Positions 8,396-17,049 of a stretch of DNA of 20,619 nt are shown here, one piece after another. The position numbers and the translations under genes were made by a program. Source of the DNA: a virus; IMG/VR virus record IMGVR_UViG_3300034066_000842, positions 1 through 20,619 of that record; one strand, written 5' to 3'. The first letter of the stretch is position 1; the number at the start of each line of letters is the position of its first letter. Below the pieces are notes generated by a model, which saw nothing but the letters and a program-made list of their open reading frames with translations, was not told where the DNA came from and did not search any database.

Positions 8396-9667
8396 TTACC
8401 TTGGTTTTCTTCCAAATGAATCACGAACCAAATTTATCTTTGTTAGAGTTGAACTTGGTGTAATGTGAAAACATATATCTGATATCATATATATACCACT
8501 TAATTCCTTGTCTGCCATAATTGTGTCCTTTTCACCTTGTTCTGGGAAATCACAAAAAACTAAATCACCAGCTCTTAATGAACAATCTCCTGGAATAATA
8601 ATACTTAATATCAGAGTAAAAACCTGATTATATCTCATAGAAGATTGAATAAGAACATTATTAGAATCTAAATTTTCTTTTGTCGATTTTTGAAGTTGAG
8701 CCTTACTATTGTTTGCTGGTTCGGGTAAATGCCCAACATCCATTCTTTTATAAGATCTTCTAGTTGCACCCTCAAAACCTTCACCTAATTTGGGAGACTC
8801 TAATCCACCAAGTTCTTCCTGCTGTTCTGATGACAATTGCTTAGTGGTTTTAAATTTATCTGTATATGGATCAAACGATTCCATTTTACTTTCATAAGAT
8901 CCCATAATCAAATTAGACATTACATCAATTGTTTTGCTGGCATCATATCTTAATATTTTAGCATCATATCCTGGTGGAAGTAATGTAGTTCCATTAAAAA
9001 TATATTTTTTTACGGGTTCTTGTTCAAATAATTTATCTATAGATTTAAATTTAAACCCATCATAAGTTTCAAATAAAAAATATCCAGCAGAAGTTCCAGA
9101 TGACCCACTAGGAACTGATAATTTTGCAACCTCTGTGGCAAGTTTAAATGGTTTTTTACCTCCACCAATAAAATTATATTTGTTTACGGTTGTATCTACA
9201 TCTATAATTTTATCAGTTTTTATGTTATCTCTCAGAATTCTCATTACAGATTCTGATATTTCTCCATCAAATCTTCGATAAACTTCAGAGTTTGTAAATT
9301 GATTCGTCAGATATTCTTTACTTACAATATCTAAAGTAAATACTGCATTTTGTCTATCTGAAAAAATATTTCTAATTTTAGATACATATAATTCATCAAA
9401 TTTTAATACATTTCCATAATTATCTTCAAACTCAAGTTCAACCTTTTCAAATCCAGATAATTTTAGTCCTTCTAGAACAGTTTTATTATTTGCAGCATTT
9501 CCAGTATCAATAATTGTAACAGAAACCGTTACTGTATGTTCTAACACACTCTCATAATAATCAAACAACACAACACCAGCAGACACATCACAAGAACCAC
9601 TTCCTCTATTAGAGTAAATGATAAACTTTTTAATATTAGCAGATTGTGCTTCTTTATTTGCGGTCAT
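8396..9667 (-). CDS. 27: Baseplate hub protein, gp27-like
   Basis: 423 aa. The N-terminal part (residues about 10-125: IKKFIIYSNRGSG, YESVLEHTVTVSVTI, ELEFEDNYG, IRNIFSDRQNAVFTLDIVS, YLTNQ) matches the barrel-forming architecture of gp27/gpD hub proteins, where tandem beta-barrels build the ring under the tail tube. It continues with an EVYRRFDGEISESVMRIL helix and a second strand-rich region (GYFLFETYDGFKFKSI, about 196-211). The C-terminal part (YNQVFTLILSIIIPGDCSLRAGDLVFCDFP) resembles the barrel seen in hub proteins that bind the spike. T4 gp27 is 391 aa, so the length fits. The first 4 nt overlap the 1060-aa gene. Assignment is by pattern and position, with no alignment run. Confidence 0.7.
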   Translation of the reverse strand: MTANKEAQSANIKKFIIYSNRGSGSCDVSAGVVLFDYYESVLEHTVTVSVTIIDTGNAANNKTVLEGLKLSGFEKVELEFEDNYGNVLKFDELYVSKIRNIFSDRQNAVFTLDIVSKEYLTNQFTNSEVYRRFDGEISESVMRILRDNIKTDKIIDVDTTVNKYNFIGGGKKPFKLATEVAKLSVPSGSSGTSAGYFLFETYDGFKFKSIDKLFEQEPVKKYIFNGTTLLPPGYDAKILRYDASKTIDVMSNLIMGSYESKMESFDPYTDKFKTTKQLSSEQQEELGGLESPKLGEGFEGATRRSYKRMDVGHLPEPANNSKAQLQKSTKENLDSNNVLIQSSMRYNQVFTLILSIIIPGDCSLRAGDLVFCDFPEQGEKDTIMADKELSGIYMISDICFHITPSSTLTKINLVRDSFGRKPR

Positions 9668-12600
9668 GCTAGTGCCGATTCGATACTATTATCTATGTGT
9701 GCGGATCTTCCAATAGTAGGAATTTTTCCACCAGATCCAATAGTAGATGTAGATTTAATTCTCTCATGTATTGGAAGTATTACAACTTTCATTCCAGTAG
9801 ACTCATATGATGCTTGTGATTTTATACTTTCTGGAGCATAAGATTTTTTATTTACTTTTGATATTTTTGCAGATGGTTTCATATCATGCATTTTATTTCC
9901 CATCTCATTCATTGCTTCAAAAGTTTCTCTTCCAAATAAACTAACTGCTTTTGAAGACATAACCATTTCGTTTTTATGAAGCATACCAACACCACCATCA
10001 CCAGTATATCCACCTTTTTTAAAAGCAACATGCACATGATCATAATGAGCAGCATTTGTATTGGAAGGATCTCCACCAGCCCATTTAGATTTTGAAGGAG
10101 GACCCCAATGCGTTAAAGGAACTTTTTTACCCCCAGATATTCCAAATCCAAGAGGAGTATATATCAATTCTTGTACAGAACTTCCATATCTTTTAACAAT
10201 TTCTTTTGCCAATGCAAGTTGTTGTGAAGTTCCCAGTCCTTTACTATCATTCGAAAAATCCATTGCTCTACCAACACCATGAAATCCTCTAGAACCTGGG
10301 CGATAAGATGAAAATAATGGTACTCCCATACTTTCAGCTAAAGATCTCACTGATTGCAAACTTCCTTGTTGAGATCCCATCTTCATATTTGGATCAATAT
10401 TTCCACCAGTAGATGGTTTATATACCGTAATCGCTGGAGATCCTGAAGCTCTTTGTGCAGCGTTTAAATATGACTTGTAGGCACCACTTTTATAAACTGA
10501 CCAGGCAGAAAATCCCTGACTTTCTTTTGTTTTTTTAGCAGCATGTGCATTAATTACGGGATCTTTTAACTGTTCATAATTCGAAATTCCAAATTGTTTA
10601 AGTCTTTCTGGTCCAAGACTATCAATCATATTAATTTGCCATAATCCATAAGAGTTATCTCCAGTAGCTCGATTATTATTATGTGCGTTCGAATTTCCAC
10701 CAGATTCTGCCATAGCAATTGCAGCCATAATTACGGCATCAGATTGACTAAATCCAGCACCTTTAGCTAATCCAACAAGTTGTTCAATACTTATTTGACC
10801 CCTCGATAAAGTTCCAGCAGCGAGTTCTCCATCCATCCCCACAGTAGAATCTCCAGTAACAGATCCAGCAGGAGGTGTTTTTTCAGACTCTAGTTTAATA
10901 GAATTTAAAATTATATCAGATTGCCTTTCTACAAATTGTCTAAACATTCCAGCAACAGAATTTCCAACTCTTTCACCAAAATTTAATTTATCATTTGACA
11001 ACATAGTAGGAACTATTCCACCATTAGCCATTGCTAAAATAGATCTTGCAGTATCATTAACTGCTATATCAGCATTTGCATCAATCAATTGCTGAATAAC
11101 GGAACCAAAAGCATTTCCAACTCGGTCATAAAAATTTTTGTTTGGTTTTTGACCCATTACAAGATCAACACCAACGCCCATAATTTGTCCAAAAAATGAA
11201 CTGTTTGGTTTTTTAAGCTCACTAGACGCAGTTGTTAAAACCCTCAAAGAGCTCATTTGTTGAGAATTTTTTGGATCCTCTGGATTAAATACTTTTTCTA
11301 TTACATCTCTTCCACCAACATCTTTACCAATTTGAACTGGTCTTTCAGATATTTTGGGTGGTTTTGGTTTTGTTCGTTTAAATGTTCTTTGTATTTTTCC
11401 ACCTACTTGCTTTCCACTTCGTGTAGATATTTGTCCACCCTTAGCACGTCCTTCAATTTTTTCAGGTCTTTGATAAGCAGTAATTGTTTCATATAAACTC
11501 ACACCCAATTGGTCACCAATCAATCCACCTAGTAGTCCACCAATTGCAGCACCAGCACCAGCACCAATTAAATTACCAATAATTGGAACTACACTTCCAG
11601 CAACACCACCAACAGTACCACCCAGCCAAGTTCCAAGTGCTTGCCCAACTCCAGCACCAACTGCACCCGCAGTTGCTTTCCCTAAAGGTTCACGTAAAAC
11701 AAAATATCTAAAAGCAAAATCAACTAAAGGTCCAATAATTGGAAATCTACCAAGTGCCTTAGTAGCACCACTAGCAATTTTTGCACCACCTTTACCAAAA
11801 GTTCTTGCTGCAAATCTATTAGCAGTTCTTCCAATTCCCCTTCTTCCAACTTGTCCTGCAGTTTGCCCATCTCCAGCAAGTCCAGAAATATTTCTGCGAT
11901 TAAATAATCCTCTTGGTTGAAATCTTTTCTTAACTTCTTTAAATGCTTGTGAAGAATTTTTACCAGAATCTCTTAGTTCTTCATAATATCTTGCTGCACT
12001 ATTACCAAATTTTCTTTCAATTAATTTTGCTTCTTTACCACGATTCAAATAACGATTGAGTCTATCATTTGCTGGTAATTGTTTCCCTCCACTAATACCT
12101 TTTTGATTACCAAATCCACCTTTTGGTTTCTTTTTACCCATTCCAAAATCAGTTCCACCTATGGTGGACATTCCAGCAATTATAGCAAGATTAATAAATG
12201 TGTTTAATTGTCCAGAGAATTGATCAAATGTTTTTTGGAGATTTTCCCCACCAATATTTTTGATAGTATCTCTAACTTTATCATAAACACCATATCCAAT
12301 TTCAATAAAACTGACTAGTTTATCAGCCATTCCACCAATAAAACTTTCAATGAAAGTTATTGCTGGAGTTAATTTTTTACTGAACTCAATTATTTGTGGA
12401 AGATATTTTACTAATCTTACTAAAACAAATCCAAGTAAAGTGCTAGTGACAAAATTTTTAATACTATCAAGTAATCCCAGTCTTTTAGTGGGAATAGATA
12501 AACCTCCAGGGAGTGATTTATCTTTTTTTTGTTCTAAAATGTTCTCTTTTTTTACCCTTTTTTTATTTTCTAATTCTTTACTCTTACCAATTAGCGTTTT

Positions 12601-12846
12601 CTTTTGTAAATCTAAACTTTTTTTTAAAATATCTTCTATAGATATTACTTTTTCTTTTATTATTAAAATATCTTTGTTTAAATCTTTATTAGATTCTTGT
12701 TGCTCAAGTTCTTGAGGAACTGGTGCAGTATCTCTATACTGTACGTTCTTTGCAGGTACTAAAAATCGAGTAGCATTACTATAAGATGCCTTTTTATTTT
12801 CTTCTTTAGAAGATGGTAATAATTTTTTAGGATCTAATACAGCCAT
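9664..12846 (-). CDS. Second tape-measure-like tail protein with lytic transglycosylase and M15-type peptidase domains
   Basis: 1060 aa. Residues about 45-120 are coiled-coil-like and Lys/Glu-rich. Residues 125-230 are hydrophobic helix (TLLGFVLVRLVKYLPQIIEF). About 395-455 is an Ala/Gly-rich membrane-like stretch (PIIGNLIGAGAGAAIGGLLG). Residues 690-800 resemble a transglycosylase/lysozyme fold: MAAIAMAESGGNS with candidate catalytic Glu714, then YGLWQINM. Residues 845-945 resemble a peptidase M15-like domain: GFHGVGRAMDFS supplies His856 and Asp863, and HYDHVHV supplies His937 and His939, the usual zinc set. A following GEM/NEMVMSSKAVSLFG motif is typical of tape measures. The protein would be carried in the tail lumen and released to cut peptidoglycan. 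It overlaps the gp27-like gene by 4 nt. Confidence 0.75.
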   Translation of the reverse strand: MAVLDPKKLLPSSKEENKKASYSNATRFLVPAKNVQYRDTAPVPQELEQQESNKDLNKDILIIKEKVISIEDILKKSLDLQKKTLIGKSKELENKKRVKKENILEQKKDKSLPGGLSIPTKRLGLLDSIKNFVTSTLLGFVLVRLVKYLPQIIEFSKKLTPAITFIESFIGGMADKLVSFIEIGYGVYDKVRDTIKNIGGENLQKTFDQFSGQLNTFINLAIIAGMSTIGGTDFGMGKKKPKGGFGNQKGISGGKQLPANDRLNRYLNRGKEAKLIERKFGNSAARYYEELRDSGKNSSQAFKEVKKRFQPRGLFNRRNISGLAGDGQTAGQVGRRGIGRTANRFAARTFGKGGAKIASGATKALGRFPIIGPLVDFAFRYFVLREPLGKATAGAVGAGVGQALGTWLGGTVGGVAGSVVPIIGNLIGAGAGAAIGGLLGGLIGDQLGVSLYETITAYQRPEKIEGRAKGGQISTRSGKQVGGKIQRTFKRTKPKPPKISERPVQIGKDVGGRDVIEKVFNPEDPKNSQQMSSLRVLTTASSELKKPNSSFFGQIMGVGVDLVMGQKPNKNFYDRVGNAFGSVIQQLIDANADIAVNDTARSILAMANGGIVPTMLSNDKLNFGERVGNSVAGMFRQFVERQSDIILNSIKLESEKTPPAGSVTGDSTVGMDGELAAGTLSRGQISIEQLVGLAKGAGFSQSDAVIMAAIAMAESGGNSNAHNNNRATGDNSYGLWQINMIDSLGPERLKQFGISNYEQLKDPVINAHAAKKTKESQGFSAWSVYKSGAYKSYLNAAQRASGSPAITVYKPSTGGNIDPNMKMGSQQGSLQSVRSLAESMGVPLFSSYRPGSRGFHGVGRAMDFSNDSKGLGTSQQLALAKEIVKRYGSSVQELIYTPLGFGISGGKKVPLTHWGPPSKSKWAGGDPSNTNAAHYDHVHVAFKKGGYTGDGGVGMLHKNEMVMSSKAVSLFGRETFEAMNEMGNKMHDMKPSAKISKVNKKSYAPESIKSQASYESTGMKVVILPIHERIKSTSTIGSGGKIPTIGRSAHIDNSIESALA

Positions 12847-12847
12847 T

Positions 12848-15250
12848 TTAGTTTATACCACCTATACCGTATATTTGAATGTTATTTTTTCGATGAGAAC
12901 TCATCATAAATGCAGGAAAATCTTCAACATCTCTTATAGCATTCATTCTAGTTCCAGAAGATTCTGTAGATTGTTTTACTACTGGAGGTAATGTAATAAC
13001 ATTAGATTTAGATCTTCCACTTGGTGGTTCTGGAATATATTGTTTAATATTTGGTCGTATATTAATATTTCTTTTTCTAAGATCAACTAGGGTATCACCA
13101 ACACCACTTATCATTGTCATTGCATTATTAATAAATGGTACAATGAAAGGCATTTTTTGTGATAATGGTCTAAATGATTGTAAAGCAGCGTCTTTTATAG
13201 AAACTGAATTTATGTCATTAGATATTTGTAAATTAGAAGGTTTATTATTTGGTTGTGTTCTTGGAGGTTTGAGTGAAAATGGTTTAATAGAAGGTGCCTT
13301 TTGACTTGATTTTTTGTTCGCAGTTGGTACATTTTGTAAAGTATCTGAGGTATCACCAAACATTTTTGTTGGAGTTGTCAATTTTTTATTTTGATCCAAA
13401 GAACTTGCAACATTCACAACATTATTAAGACTCATCATGGATTTTTTATTAGCAACCTCAGGATTAAAAACAGATTTCTTGGCAGCCGCAGATGGTTTTT
13501 CTGGAACTAATGCCCCAACCATTCCACCACCAGCAGCCAATTGAATATTATTCACCATTTTAGGAACGTTAGTTCCTCCACCAGACTTGTTTAATCCTAA
13601 GAAGAAGTTTGCCCCATACTTATCAACTGCTGGTTTAGAGATAACAATCTCTCCAGGTTGAGCAGCAATCAACTGAGTATCTTTCCCAGCTCCAGCAATT
13701 CTAACACCAGTATCATCTGTGATAGTACCACCACTTTCAAATCCAATATTTTTAATTGGAGTAGGTTTCTGATAATCCCCAAATTTAGGGATCAATCCAC
13801 CACCTCTAAACATATTAAATCCACGACTCTGTATTTGCTCTTGTGATAATTGTGCAGCACCTGGTCCTTTACCAGTTTTTGCAGTTTCTTGAGGTAATAC
13901 TGTAGATGGATCAGATTTTTTATTTTCTTTTCTTGTTTTATCAACTTGTTGTGTAGATGCATAAGCACCAACTCCAGCAGCAATACTACCACCAATAAGA
14001 GCTGCTGTAACAGGATTTGCTTTTACAAAGTTGAGTAATTTTGGAATTGCAAATTTACTCAGTTTAAATGTTAATTTGGTAACTGTTCCGATGATAGATC
14101 TAACAAATCCACCTAAAGGAGTTGCAAATAATAAAAATGCTCCTAGTAATGCAGGCCACCAATCACCAATAAATCTAACTAAAGTATCAATTTTCTTTTT
14201 ATTTTTTTTATCCGATATCCAATCTATAAATTTGACCATTAAACGGCCAAGCAAAGTCCAAACAATAAAATTAATTATTTTGTCAAGAATACTTTGGAAT
14301 GGTGCTAAGACTTTTGATGCTAATGTTTTTAACTTGTTATCTCTTTTCTCTAAGTCTTCTTCCCTTTTACCCCTTTTTAAATTTTCACCAATTTTTCTTT
14401 GATTCTCTGCATCTTTTTGAATCAATTTATTTTGAGATGCAAGAAGAGAGGCAATAGAAATTATAGAATTTTTTATTGCTTCAATATCTTTTTTTATTGA
14501 ACTCCCAATATTTGCAGATTCTTTAGAAACATCAGGTACAGAAACTTTTCCAGCAAGAAAATATTGCTGTTTAGATACTCTTATTGGACCAGTTGTTCCA
14601 ATATTATCTGCATTTATTTTTTTACTTCTTACTTTAAATCTACCAACCTTTCCCTTTACTCTTTTAAATTCATCTTGCAATAATATCTGTTCTTCTCTGG
14701 GGATTTTTTTATCCCCCATACTTATTGTTACTAATTTTTCTTTTAGAAGACTTAAATAAGTACCATAATCAATATCAAAAATATCTTGTATCCCAAGTAT
14801 TTTTAATATTCTTTCATCAATTTCCTCATTAACTAAGTCTTCTTCTTTAGTACCTTCATATAAAGTTAATGCACCAGAAGGATCTAGAACATTACTTTTA
14901 GATTGTTCTTTAGGTGGAACTTCTTTTGGTATTTTTGTCTTTTTACTTTTATCATTTACATAGTAATTCCACAAAAATAAAATATACTGGTCACGTAAAC
15001 TAAAATCTTTATTGGATTGTGGATTTTGTACAGACTCAATTGGTGCTGGATAATCCTTATCAGACGCCAAATATGCGTTAATAAAAGTATCTGCTACTTT
15101 ATCTGCCTTCACACCAAAGTTATTTTCAATTAAATACTTGCTCACTTCCATTCGTTGAGCAAGTATTTTTTTATATTGCCCAGTTCTACTCGCTACAATA
15201 GTAGATATTGGCCAAAATTTATCTATAAACTTTGGTTTATTAGCCGACAT
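12848..15250 (-). CDS. Tape measure-like tail protein, 800 aa
   Basis: Residues about 225-315 are coiled-coil-like (ENLKRGKREEDLEKRDNKLK). Residues 315-430 contain several hydrophobic helices (IINFIVWTLLGRLMVKFIDW; WWPALLGAFLLFATPLGG; TAALIGGSIAAGVGAYAS), as in tape measures that insert into the host membrane. Residues about 495-580 are Gly-rich and contain TDDTGVRIAGAGKDTQL, then PGEIVISKPAVDKYG, a motif found in many phage tape measures. T4 gp29 is 590 aa, so this one is longer. It starts 11 nt inside the small ORF at 15240-15407, directly after the gp26-like frameshift site, as gene H follows G/GT in lambda. The T4 gene number 29 is not assigned because sequence alone does not show it. Confidence 0.8.
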   Translation of the reverse strand: MSANKPKFIDKFWPISTIVASRTGQYKKILAQRMEVSKYLIENNFGVKADKVADTFINAYLASDKDYPAPIESVQNPQSNKDFSLRDQYILFLWNYYVNDKSKKTKIPKEVPPKEQSKSNVLDPSGALTLYEGTKEEDLVNEEIDERILKILGIQDIFDIDYGTYLSLLKEKLVTISMGDKKIPREEQILLQDEFKRVKGKVGRFKVRSKKINADNIGTTGPIRVSKQQYFLAGKVSVPDVSKESANIGSSIKKDIEAIKNSIISIASLLASQNKLIQKDAENQRKIGENLKRGKREEDLEKRDNKLKTLASKVLAPFQSILDKIINFIVWTLLGRLMVKFIDWISDKKNKKKIDTLVRFIGDWWPALLGAFLLFATPLGGFVRSIIGTVTKLTFKLSKFAIPKLLNFVKANPVTAALIGGSIAAGVGAYASTQQVDKTRKENKKSDPSTVLPQETAKTGKGPGAAQLSQEQIQSRGFNMFRGGGLIPKFGDYQKPTPIKNIGFESGGTITDDTGVRIAGAGKDTQLIAAQPGEIVISKPAVDKYGANFFLGLNKSGGGTNVPKMVNNIQLAAGGGMVGALVPEKPSAAAKKSVFNPEVANKKSMMSLNNVVNVASSLDQNKKLTTPTKMFGDTSDTLQNVPTANKKSSQKAPSIKPFSLKPPRTQPNNKPSNLQISNDINSVSIKDAALQSFRPLSQKMPFIVPFINNAMTMISGVGDTLVDLRKRNINIRPNIKQYIPEPPSGRSKSNVITLPPVVKQSTESSGTRMNAIRDVEDFPAFMMSSHRKNNIQIYGIGGIN

Positions 15251-15407
15251 TTTGTTGTTGTTTAAGTTTTTCTTCTTCCAAATGAGCCTTCAATAAAGTA
15301 ACGTAAATGTCCCGTTCCCACGGTATCAAATTTTCAATCTCTGTTAATGAATATTTATGATATTGAATCAAAGAAAAATTCAACTTATAATAATTCTCCA
15401 AGTCCAT
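15240..15407 (-). CDS. gp51-like 55-aa ORF, likely expressed as the -1 frameshift extension of gp26
   Basis: The frame runs from the ATG at 15407 (MDLENYYKLNFSLIQYHKYS) to TAA at 15240-15242. The product is helical and charged, with LTEIENLIPWERDIYVTLLK and a Gln/Lys/Glu tail (LEEEKLKQQQ), a pattern I associate with tail assembly chaperone C-termini and the small hub-assembly protein placed after gp26 in T4-like phages. The frame remains open upstream through the slippery site (next codons CGT ATA GCT CTA GTC CAT), so it can be read either as an independent protein or as the last 61 residues of a 299-aa gp26 fusion. It overlaps the tape-measure start by 11 nt. T4 gp51 is a hub-assembly catalyst; homology is not demonstrated here. 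Confidence 0.7.
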   Translation of the reverse strand: MDLENYYKLNFSLIQYHKYSLTEIENLIPWERDIYVTLLKAHLEEEKLKQQQNVG

Positions 15408-15414
15408 ATGGACT
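15401..15414. repeat. Perfect 14-bp palindrome AGTCCATATGGACT after the slippery site
   Basis: AGTCCATATGGACT equals its own reverse complement. In the minus-strand mRNA it can fold as a 5-bp stem with an ATAT loop, beginning 10 nt after the slippery heptamer. That is slightly further than the usual 5-9 nt spacer. It contains the 55-aa ORF start codon, so folding could also regulate independent initiation there. Confidence 0.6.
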
Positions 15415-15418
15415 AGAG

Positions 15419-16138
15419 CTATACGAAAAAACTTGACAGGCCCTCCAGTACGACAGTACTTTCAACACCAGTATTTGGATTGGTAACTTTAATTTCATGA
15501 GAAAGTTTTGGCATCGTATCAAAGAATTCTTCAATCATTTTAAATTGAGAAGAATTCATTTGATCTAGAAATTCAACAATTTCTTTTTTGGTTACATCAG
15601 AAGAAGACCATGCTTCATTTTCCGTATAAATTTTATCCACACAAGAAGCAACTAAATCAAAAGATTGCTCCATATTACTATTACCAGTAAAGTCAAAATT
15701 ACTCTTAATAAATTGATCCAATGAAGGATATTTCATTTCCATCATTATGGAATCATCAATTTTAATCTGTGTTTTGTGCTTATCATTTTTTTGCACTTGA
15801 ATATCATCAATATCAATAGTTACAGGAACTGTAGTCTGTTCATCATCAGGACAAATAATATTTACTTCAAGTTCTTCACCAACCGACTTTCCACGAATAT
15901 TTAAAAACAAATATTCAATATCAAATGTTGGTAATGATTCTACCTTTATATTTTTTGTAAGTATACAGTTTTTAATAACTGTTTTAATTGCTGTCGTAAT
16001 TTGTTTAGTATCTTCACTCTCCAATGCTAAAACTAATAGTTTTTCTTCTCTTACTAAAAATGGTCTATATTGTATAACTTGACTAGTAGAAGGCAATTCC
16101 AACTCATATGTTGGGGCAGAAATTTTTGGTAAAGGCAT
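15419..16138 (-). CDS. 26: gp26-like baseplate hub / tail assembly chaperone
   Basis: 239 aa beginning MPLPKISAPTYELELPSTSQ. The pattern RPFLVREEKLLVLALES (about 26-42) followed by helical KQITTAIKTVIKNCIL and DIEYLFLNIRGKSVGEELEV is typical of the T4_baseplate (gp26) family. T4 gp26 is 208 aa. The C-terminal half is acidic and helical (KKEIVEFLDQMNSSQFKMIEEFFDTMP). The start has a good Shine-Dalgarno (TAGGAG, 3 nt before the ATG) and a late-promoter-like octamer 26 nt upstream. The 3' end carries the slippery heptamer at 15425-15431, three bases before the stop. It heads the tail operon. I infer that its role may be that of a chaperone for the tape measure. Confidence 0.8.
   Translation of the reverse strand: MPLPKISAPTYELELPSTSQVIQYRPFLVREEKLLVLALESEDTKQITTAIKTVIKNCILTKNIKVESLPTFDIEYLFLNIRGKSVGEELEVNIICPDDEQTTVPVTIDIDDIQVQKNDKHKTQIKIDDSIMMEMKYPSLDQFIKSNFDFTGNSNMEQSFDLVASCVDKIYTENEAWSSSDVTKKEIVEFLDQMNSSQFKMIEEFFDTMPKLSHEIKVTNPNTGVESTVVLEGLSSFFV
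15425..15431 (-). promoter_or_regulatory. -1 ribosomal frameshift heptamer T TTT TTC
   Basis: On the minus strand the codons before the gp26 stop are AGT TTT TTC GTA TAG. The heptamer T TTT TTC matches X XXY YYZ with zero-frame codons TTT and TTC. Slipping back one base re-pairs both tRNAs on TTT TTT and continues CGT ATA GCT into the 55-aa ORF. The zero-frame stop follows 3 nt after the heptamer. Confidence 0.7.
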
Positions 16139-16185: not shown

Positions 16186-17049
16186 TTATACATCATCATA
16201 TATTTGCGATAATGTAGATCTACCATCCTGTATAGCAACAGTTCTTGGAATATCAGTTCCTCTTGATCCATTTAACTGAACTGTTGTAGTTCCAGGTGGA
16301 ACATCTGGATTTCCAGTTGAATTTGGATTTCTATCAGGAACTGTTGTCTCAGCAACAGTTGTTAAATCATCAACAGCATATCTAGTATAAGAAAAAGATA
16401 CAGTAACTTTTAATAAAGAAGAAGATTCATAAGATACTGGAATAGAATTTAAACTCACTGGAAATGCATCTACAAAATTATAGATTAATAATGGTGATTG
16501 AGATGATCTACCAGTGCCATAATCTCTCTCATATTTAACAATTTGTATAATTGATTTATAGAACTCTGGATATTGTATTCTAGATATCGATGCGGAAGAA
16601 AGTTTATCATTAGCAGAAACTCCCTGAATATATTGCTCATTTGCAATATATCTCATCCATGCCTCAAAAAATCTAATTTGATAATAGTTACTATCTTGAG
16701 TCACATAAAATGTAAAGTCTGCCCTATCATCATATAATCTCCTGTATGCATGTTTTTGGGTTATCCCCATATAATCATTATTAATATCAATTGTTGCAAA
16801 TGATGATCCTGGTAATGATGCCTCAGAACAAGATAGTTCTAATAATTCATTATCTACTGGTTTTCCTATTTGTTTTTCTATGAATGACAAAGCAAACCCC
16901 TTATCCCCAGATTGTCTAGGAAAAGAGGCTTTACCTGGTGGAGCAATTATAACAGAATAATTAGATGTTAAAGCAGGCTGCAATAGTCTACTTTTTATTC
17001 TAGACATTGATACCCCAGGATTTATCGCTGGAAGACTTTTACCCGCCAT
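16186..17049 (-). CDS. 54: Tail-tube initiator, gp54-like (tail tube protein fold)
   Basis: 287 aa. The opening MAGKSLPAINPGVSMSRIKS is followed by a tail tube-like body: ELSCSEASLPGSSFATIDIN (about 65-90), ADFTFYVTQDSNYYQIRFFEAWMRYI (about 110-135), YPEFYKSIIQIVKYERDYG (about 160-180) and FVDAFPVSLNSIPVSYESSSLLKVTVSFSYTRY (about 190-223). That order is the phage T4 gp19/gp54 tube-fold pattern. T4 gp54 is 320 aa and gp19 is 163 aa, so gp54 fits better. It nucleates tube polymerisation on the hub together with gp48. A Pro/Thr/Asn-rich C-terminal tail (NPNSTGNPDVPPGTTTV) extends beyond the fold. It is divergent from the gp4-like gene. Confidence 0.7.
   Translation of the reverse strand: MAGKSLPAINPGVSMSRIKSRLLQPALTSNYSVIIAPPGKASFPRQSGDKGFALSFIEKQIGKPVDNELLELSCSEASLPGSSFATIDINNDYMGITQKHAYRRLYDDRADFTFYVTQDSNYYQIRFFEAWMRYIANEQYIQGVSANDKLSSASISRIQYPEFYKSIIQIVKYERDYGTGRSSQSPLLIYNFVDAFPVSLNSIPVSYESSSLLKVTVSFSYTRYAVDDLTTVAETTVPDRNPNSTGNPDVPPGTTTVQLNGSRGTDIPRTVAIQDGRSTLSQIYDDV

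Follow-up and report, generated by a model that had tools for sequence, protein, structure and literature searches.

Between the gene for a tail chaperone-like protein and the putative tape measure gene of T4-like phages, a short reading frame similar to T4 gp51 can be present, and it has to be asked whether it is a gene of its own or only the end of the gene before it. The case studied here is a T4-like marine phage, the IMG/VR virus record IMGVR_UViG_3300034066_000842, positions 1 to 20,619. This whole stretch of 20,619 nucleotides is called the window; all coordinates are positions in it, and the tail genes lie on the minus strand. In the window a gp26-like gene is followed by a gp51-like open reading frame (ORF), and the initial annotation had proposed that the two behave as one tail assembly chaperone gene joined by a programmed -1 frameshift. 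Conservation of the junction, loss of alternative start codons and the fused state of T4 gp51 all support this proposal. Based on these sequence comparisons, programmed -1 frameshifting very probably takes place at this junction and gives the long form of the tail assembly chaperone (TAC-NC), and gp26 and gp51 of this virus can with high confidence be regarded as a single gene comparable to lambda G/GT.

Decoding of the junction

The gp26-like gene (15419..16138, minus strand) encodes a protein of 239 amino acids, the short form of the chaperone (TAC-N), and matches PF12322 T4_baseplate (E 1.3e-75) and phrog_150 (E 2.6e-80). Near its end the short ORF carries a slippery heptamer in the right register, followed by an open -1 extension. 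The end of the gene reads AGT TTT TTC GTA TAG, and direct reading places the heptamer T TTT TTC at 15425..15431 (minus strand), where it had been predicted. Its first T stands at the third position in a zero-frame codon, as in the X XXY YYZ pattern, and one codon (GTA) separates it from the zero-frame stop TAG of the short form (15419..15421, minus strand). After a -1 slip the translation would continue as FF-RIALVH-MDLENYY... and stays open to the stop at 15240, giving the fusion of 299 amino acids that the initial annotation had described. The -1 frame extension (15240..15425, minus strand) adds 61 amino acids, i.e., RIALVH and the gp51-like domain, and completes the long form. The gp51-like ORF counted from its ATG (15240..15407, minus strand; 55 amino acids) matches phrog_634 (E 5e-26) as well as the C-terminal end of phrog_150 and is best taken, from its sequence, for the C-terminal end of the long form. 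The predicted tryptic peptide of the -1 product in the window ends in FFR (VTNPNTGVESTVVLEGLSSFFR) and is followed by IALVHMDLENYYK, and the predicted zero-frame product ends in FFV.

The junction was compared among 80 close relatives from viral contigs, about 235 sequences obtained with three other gp26 queries, and named phages, and 315 junctions with enough flanking sequence were scored for the heptamer. T TTT TTN was present in register in 313 of them, the last base being C in 265, A in 26, T in 21 and G in one. Phages of Synechococcus, Prochlorococcus, Methylophilales, Sinorhizobium, Pseudomonas, Stenotrophomonas, Aeromonas and Vibrio were among those with the heptamer. From these 313 junctions 191 non-redundant ones were drawn, in which the heptamer is present by construction but the open frame is not. 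The -1 frame was open for 58-71 codons in all 191, and a zero-frame stop stood close behind the heptamer in every one of them. Codon-position entropy in the alignment followed zero-frame coding up to the heptamer and -1-frame coding after it. The conservation of heptamer, frame offset and open -1 frame among drifting flanking codons, which had been suggested as a check, holds across Kyanoviridae and more distant T4-like phages. All of the suggested checks that could be run spoke for a frameshift.

Alternative explanations

The presence of an early ATG in the -1 frame of many homologues raises the possibility that frameshifting gives the long form and that some free gp51 domain is additionally made from the ATG. 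ATG is frequent at -1 codon 5 (120 of 191 homologues) and at codon 8 (89 of 191), and in the clade of the window it sits in the loop of the hairpin that follows the heptamer. However, an SD (Shine-Dalgarno) tetramer preceded none of the 120 ATGs at codon 5, and at least 12 gains or losses of the ATG in the -1 frame are needed on the tree, so the early ATG appears to be dispensable. The formation of both products is therefore considered unlikely.

It is far less probable, and hardly to be expected, that gp51 is simply a separate small protein, made from its own ATG or by re-initiation past the gp26 stop, with the poly-T run being incidental. The frequent ATGs at codons 5 and 8 would suit this explanation as well; moreover, records annotate gp51 as its own gene, and for Vibrio K567 and PVA8 gp51 is annotated from a start codon that overlaps the gp26 stop. 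On the other hand, the first 20 codons of the -1 frame are free of ATG in 33 of the 191 homologues, and in 19 they contain neither ATG nor GTG nor TTG. Besides the codon-5 ATGs, which lack the SD tetramer altogether, only 18 of the 89 ATGs at codon 8 are preceded by one. A downstream ORF in an incompatible frame and with a strong ribosome binding site had been named in the initial annotation as evidence against a frameshift; in the homologues the gp51 ATG is often missing and the SD before it slight or absent. A separate gp51 would also leave unexplained the in-register heptamer and the internal SD located 10-15 nucleotides upstream of it, and T4 has the gp51 domain in fused form. In the public records of S-PRM1, ACG-2014d, ACG-2014b and ZPAH1 the gp51 gene is not annotated.

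The spelling of the slippery site itself bears on frameshifting too. The codon before the heptamer is AGT, TCT, AAT, GAT, GCT, ACT or GGT, encoding S, N, D, A, T or G, and its third base is T in 191 of 191 junctions; parsimony requires a minimum of 50 substitutions in its first two bases, with this T kept. In some clades the last heptamer base switches Phe to Leu and leaves the slippery site intact, and nine homologues encode FL as TTT TTA or TTT TTG. Since the NNT TTT TTN spelling is used in only 31 of the 467 (6.6%) other Phe-Phe dipeptides of the same loci, against 313 of 315 junctions, the heptamer is more than chance. That it is kept only because the chaperone C-terminus needs Phe-Phe, which is conserved in most homologues, is contradicted by the FF spelling, the fixed T and the FL cases, and has next to no probability.

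Signals around the slippery site

Programmed frameshifting at this junction may be assisted by signals on both sides of the heptamer. The upstream element in the window is CTGGAGGGC, with an internal SD-like GGAGGG (15441..15446, minus strand) at -15..-10 relative to the heptamer, i.e., at a distance fitting a dnaX-like signal, and it is proposed to be the 5' stimulator. In the aligned region of the 191 homologues, the best mean pairing with the anti-SD was found in 9-nucleotide windows starting 14-18 nucleotides upstream of the heptamer (-7.4 kcal/mol, compared with a regional mean of about 0). This pairing goes beyond that of synonymous recodings (-7.4 vs. -5.7; z -12 to -18), the other windows of gp26 giving z values of -5 to +8. 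At the Leu-Glu-Gly codons of this site, Gly after the Glu codon GAA was GGG in 38 of 50 cases, compared with 13 of 201 elsewhere. A GGAGGG-like element is seen in most homologues, and the sequences indicate codon-level selection for the upstream SD in these. The internal GGAGGG was also considered as a ribosome binding site for gp51, but was rejected in this role on account of its distance from the candidate ATGs, which follow about 24 and 33 nucleotides further downstream.

Downstream, a stem-loop of 9 bp with one bulge (15396..15418, minus strand) starts 6 nucleotides after the heptamer in the window. It is the proposed 3' stimulator, with a folding energy of -11 kcal/mol (z -2.9 compared with dinucleotide shuffles) and the core stem AGTCC-ATAT-GGACT (15401-15414). 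Across the homologues, the folding energy of +3..+41 was better than that of synonymous recodings (mean z -2.2), with values near zero farther downstream. As RNAalifold gave no common structure for all 191 homologues, the hairpins were treated in separate classes. Class A (64 sequences) has a stem of about 11 bp at +6..+16/+26..+36, in which pair 14-28 occurs as T-A, A-T or G-C. Class B (58 sequences, including the window) has a 5-bp stem at +11..+15/+20..+24 with the variants GGTCC/GGACC, GATCC/GGATC and AGTCC/GGACT, and the core stem of the window hairpin covaries in relatives. With groups chosen regardless of structure, both the paired-cell fraction and the score for covariation were above all 500 shuffles and the slid controls, in a shuffle test that is inflated by kinship. 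A hairpin is present in about two thirds of the homologues. These extra RNA signals, the SD-like site and the hairpin, probably tune the slip.

Several observations weigh against the frameshift explanation. An ATG is kept early in the -1 frame in 158 of the 191 homologues, so that separate translation of gp51 would be possible there. Two of the 315 junctions, those of Vibrio K452 (with a TAATG overlap) and of a T4-type Enterobacter gp26, have no heptamer. Neither hairpin shape was found in 69 of the 191 homologues, and several of the distant phages (BUCT-ZZ01, ZPAH1 and Ahp1) have only a weak SD site or none. In addition, relatedness among the sequences inflates the significances that were based on shuffling.

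Some phages depart from the common arrangement. Vibrio K452 and its relative D531 have a gp26-like gene without the heptamer, which ends in TAATG before a short -1 ORF and lies in a different gene neighborhood; this could possibly be a third way to make two products. In the Methylophilales/Melnitz-like clade the heptamer is T TTT TTT, the zero-frame stop follows at once, and a gp51 ATG is mostly missing. The annotated gp26 of Stenotrophomonas phage IME-SM1 has 280 amino acids and no in-register heptamer near its annotated end. This call reads on in another frame past the site that matches the heptamer of the relative Bhz51, and the difference could possibly be caused by a base miscount in the poly-T run. 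No relatives of the BUCT-ZZ01, K567 and Ahp1 versions were found in the viral contigs.

Relationship to T4 gp26 and gp51

The two products that frameshifting would give in the window have counterparts in T4. The window gp26, T4 gp26 and T4 gp51 all match PF12322 and hence belong to one protein family, and T4 gp51 matches phrog_634 as the gp51-like ORF of the window does. Furthermore, T4 gp51 covers nearly all of phrog_150, which is the complete profile of the fusion, and it includes the part matching phrog_634, whereas T4 gp26 ends where the short form ends and is without the C-terminal domain. Therefore, by sequence, the frameshift product has its equivalent in T4 gp51, and the short form has its equivalent in T4 gp26. 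Unlike the arrangement in the window, T4 gp26 and gp51 are separate, divergently transcribed genes.

The predicted fold of gp26 was compared with solved structures. Residues 1-96 of the AlphaFold model (pLDDT 87.5) match 3fgx (Z 8.1), the HK97 tail assembly chaperone 2ob9 (Z 7.9) and YqbN 3klu (Z 7.4), the next match being at 4.7; a Z around 8 is possible by chance. A sequence search of gp26 against solved structures gave no match, and Foldseek alone gave no significant match in PDB, the HK97 chaperone reaching only E 1.3. It was only in a VIA second look that the tail chaperones stood apart. Because neither sequence alone nor Foldseek alone had revealed this likeness, the resemblance of the modeled N-terminal domain to solved tail assembly chaperones gives moderate support.

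Proposed mechanism and comparison with known systems

The in-register heptamer, the open frame behind it, their conservation, the loss of other start codons and, in many homologues, the hairpin point to the following course of events. Most ribosomes would end at TAG and make the short chaperone of 239 amino acids. A minority would slip back by one base on T TTT TTC, enter the -1 frame and make the long form of 299 amino acids, possibly aided by pairing of the anti-SD to the upstream GGAGGG and by the hairpin ahead. During tail assembly the gp26 parts would coat the tape measure protein, to which the C-terminal gp51 domain of the long form presumably binds. We infer the slippage itself, its rate, its stimulation by the hairpin and the SD, and the contact of the long form with the tape measure protein; by analogy with lambda, the long form would bind that protein and would be absent from the mature virion.

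As generally described for lambda G/GT, a short chaperone, a -1 shift near its 3' end, a long form and then the tape measure gene follow one another. The likeness to the window is one of layout; the slippery sequences differ, the lambda heptamer being G GGA AAG and the one here T TTT TTC. The proposed signals resemble those of Escherichia coli dnaX, where an SD-like element upstream, a slippery heptamer and a downstream hairpin are arranged with similar spacing. However, the heptamer of dnaX is A AAA AAG, and here the hairpin changes from clade to clade, with none seen in some relatives. A general conservation of the frameshift in tail genes is said to have been pointed out by Xu, Hendrix and Duda in 2004. 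The abstract of a 2022 study by Vladimirov, Gautam and Davidson reportedly states that frameshifting is apparently conserved in several T4-like groups and that T4 uses genes 26 and 51.

The initial annotation had left open whether such a case had been described for T4-like phages, and passages of two later papers indicate that it had. Poly-T motifs are mentioned as known -1 frameshift signals of TAC-N genes in T4-like phages (Vladimirov, Gautam & Davidson, Virology 2022, 566:9-15, cited in PMC12846349), and some T4-like phages are noted to carry instead a short chaperone gene and a fused long gene (Vladimirov et al. 2022, cited in PMC10885494). As far as these passages go, the same gp26/gp51 family and the same idea of a short TAC-N and a long TAC-NC are concerned, and the window is another case of the frameshifted tail chaperone already described. 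It is not new in principle, because the principle has been published, and the upstream SD element and the 3' hairpin may be new details.

Whether T4-like marine phages have a complete dnaX-like signal, with a selected internal SD and a 3' hairpin rebuilt in each clade around a fixed heptamer, is in our estimate evenly balanced. If they do, the host ribosome would, through its anti-SD pairing, partly set the ratio of short to long form, and a direct comparison with the two-gene solution of T4 would become possible. In either event, the homologue set is a large natural series for the evolution of frameshift signals, with the heptamer fixed, the stimulators changing and T4 having two genes. In many public cyanophage genomes gp51 is annotated as a baseplate hub assembly catalyst of its own, is given differing start codons, or is missing altogether (S-PRM1, ACG-2014b and ACG-2014d). 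The conserved junction indicates that the real gp51 product in such cyanophages would be the fused long chaperone. This also touches the older view in which T4 gp26 and gp51 are parts of the hub.

Neighboring genes

According to the ORF list and profile matches, the order on the minus strand is tail tube, gp26-like gene, gp51-like ORF and putative tape measure. The tail tube gene (16186..17049, minus strand; PF23849, E 2.9e-17; phrog_45, E 1.7e-33) is directly upstream of the gp26-like gene. The large ORF on the other side (12848..15250, minus strand) encodes 800 amino acids and has only weak or unnamed family matches; it is the putative tape measure gene by size and position. Starting at 15250, it shares 11 nucleotides with the end of the -1 ORF, as the initial annotation had stated. 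The chaperone locus thus stands between the tail tube gene and a large overlapping ORF, which is the position of a lambda G/GT-type chaperone. Directly after the putative tape measure ORF, a protein of 1060 amino acids with a lysozyme-like SLT domain is encoded at 9664-12846 on the minus strand; it is possibly a second protein of the tail lumen, or else a lysin of the tail. Phage tRNA genes for Thr (TGT) and Gly (TCC) are located on the same strand at 567-638 and 1231-1301, respectively.

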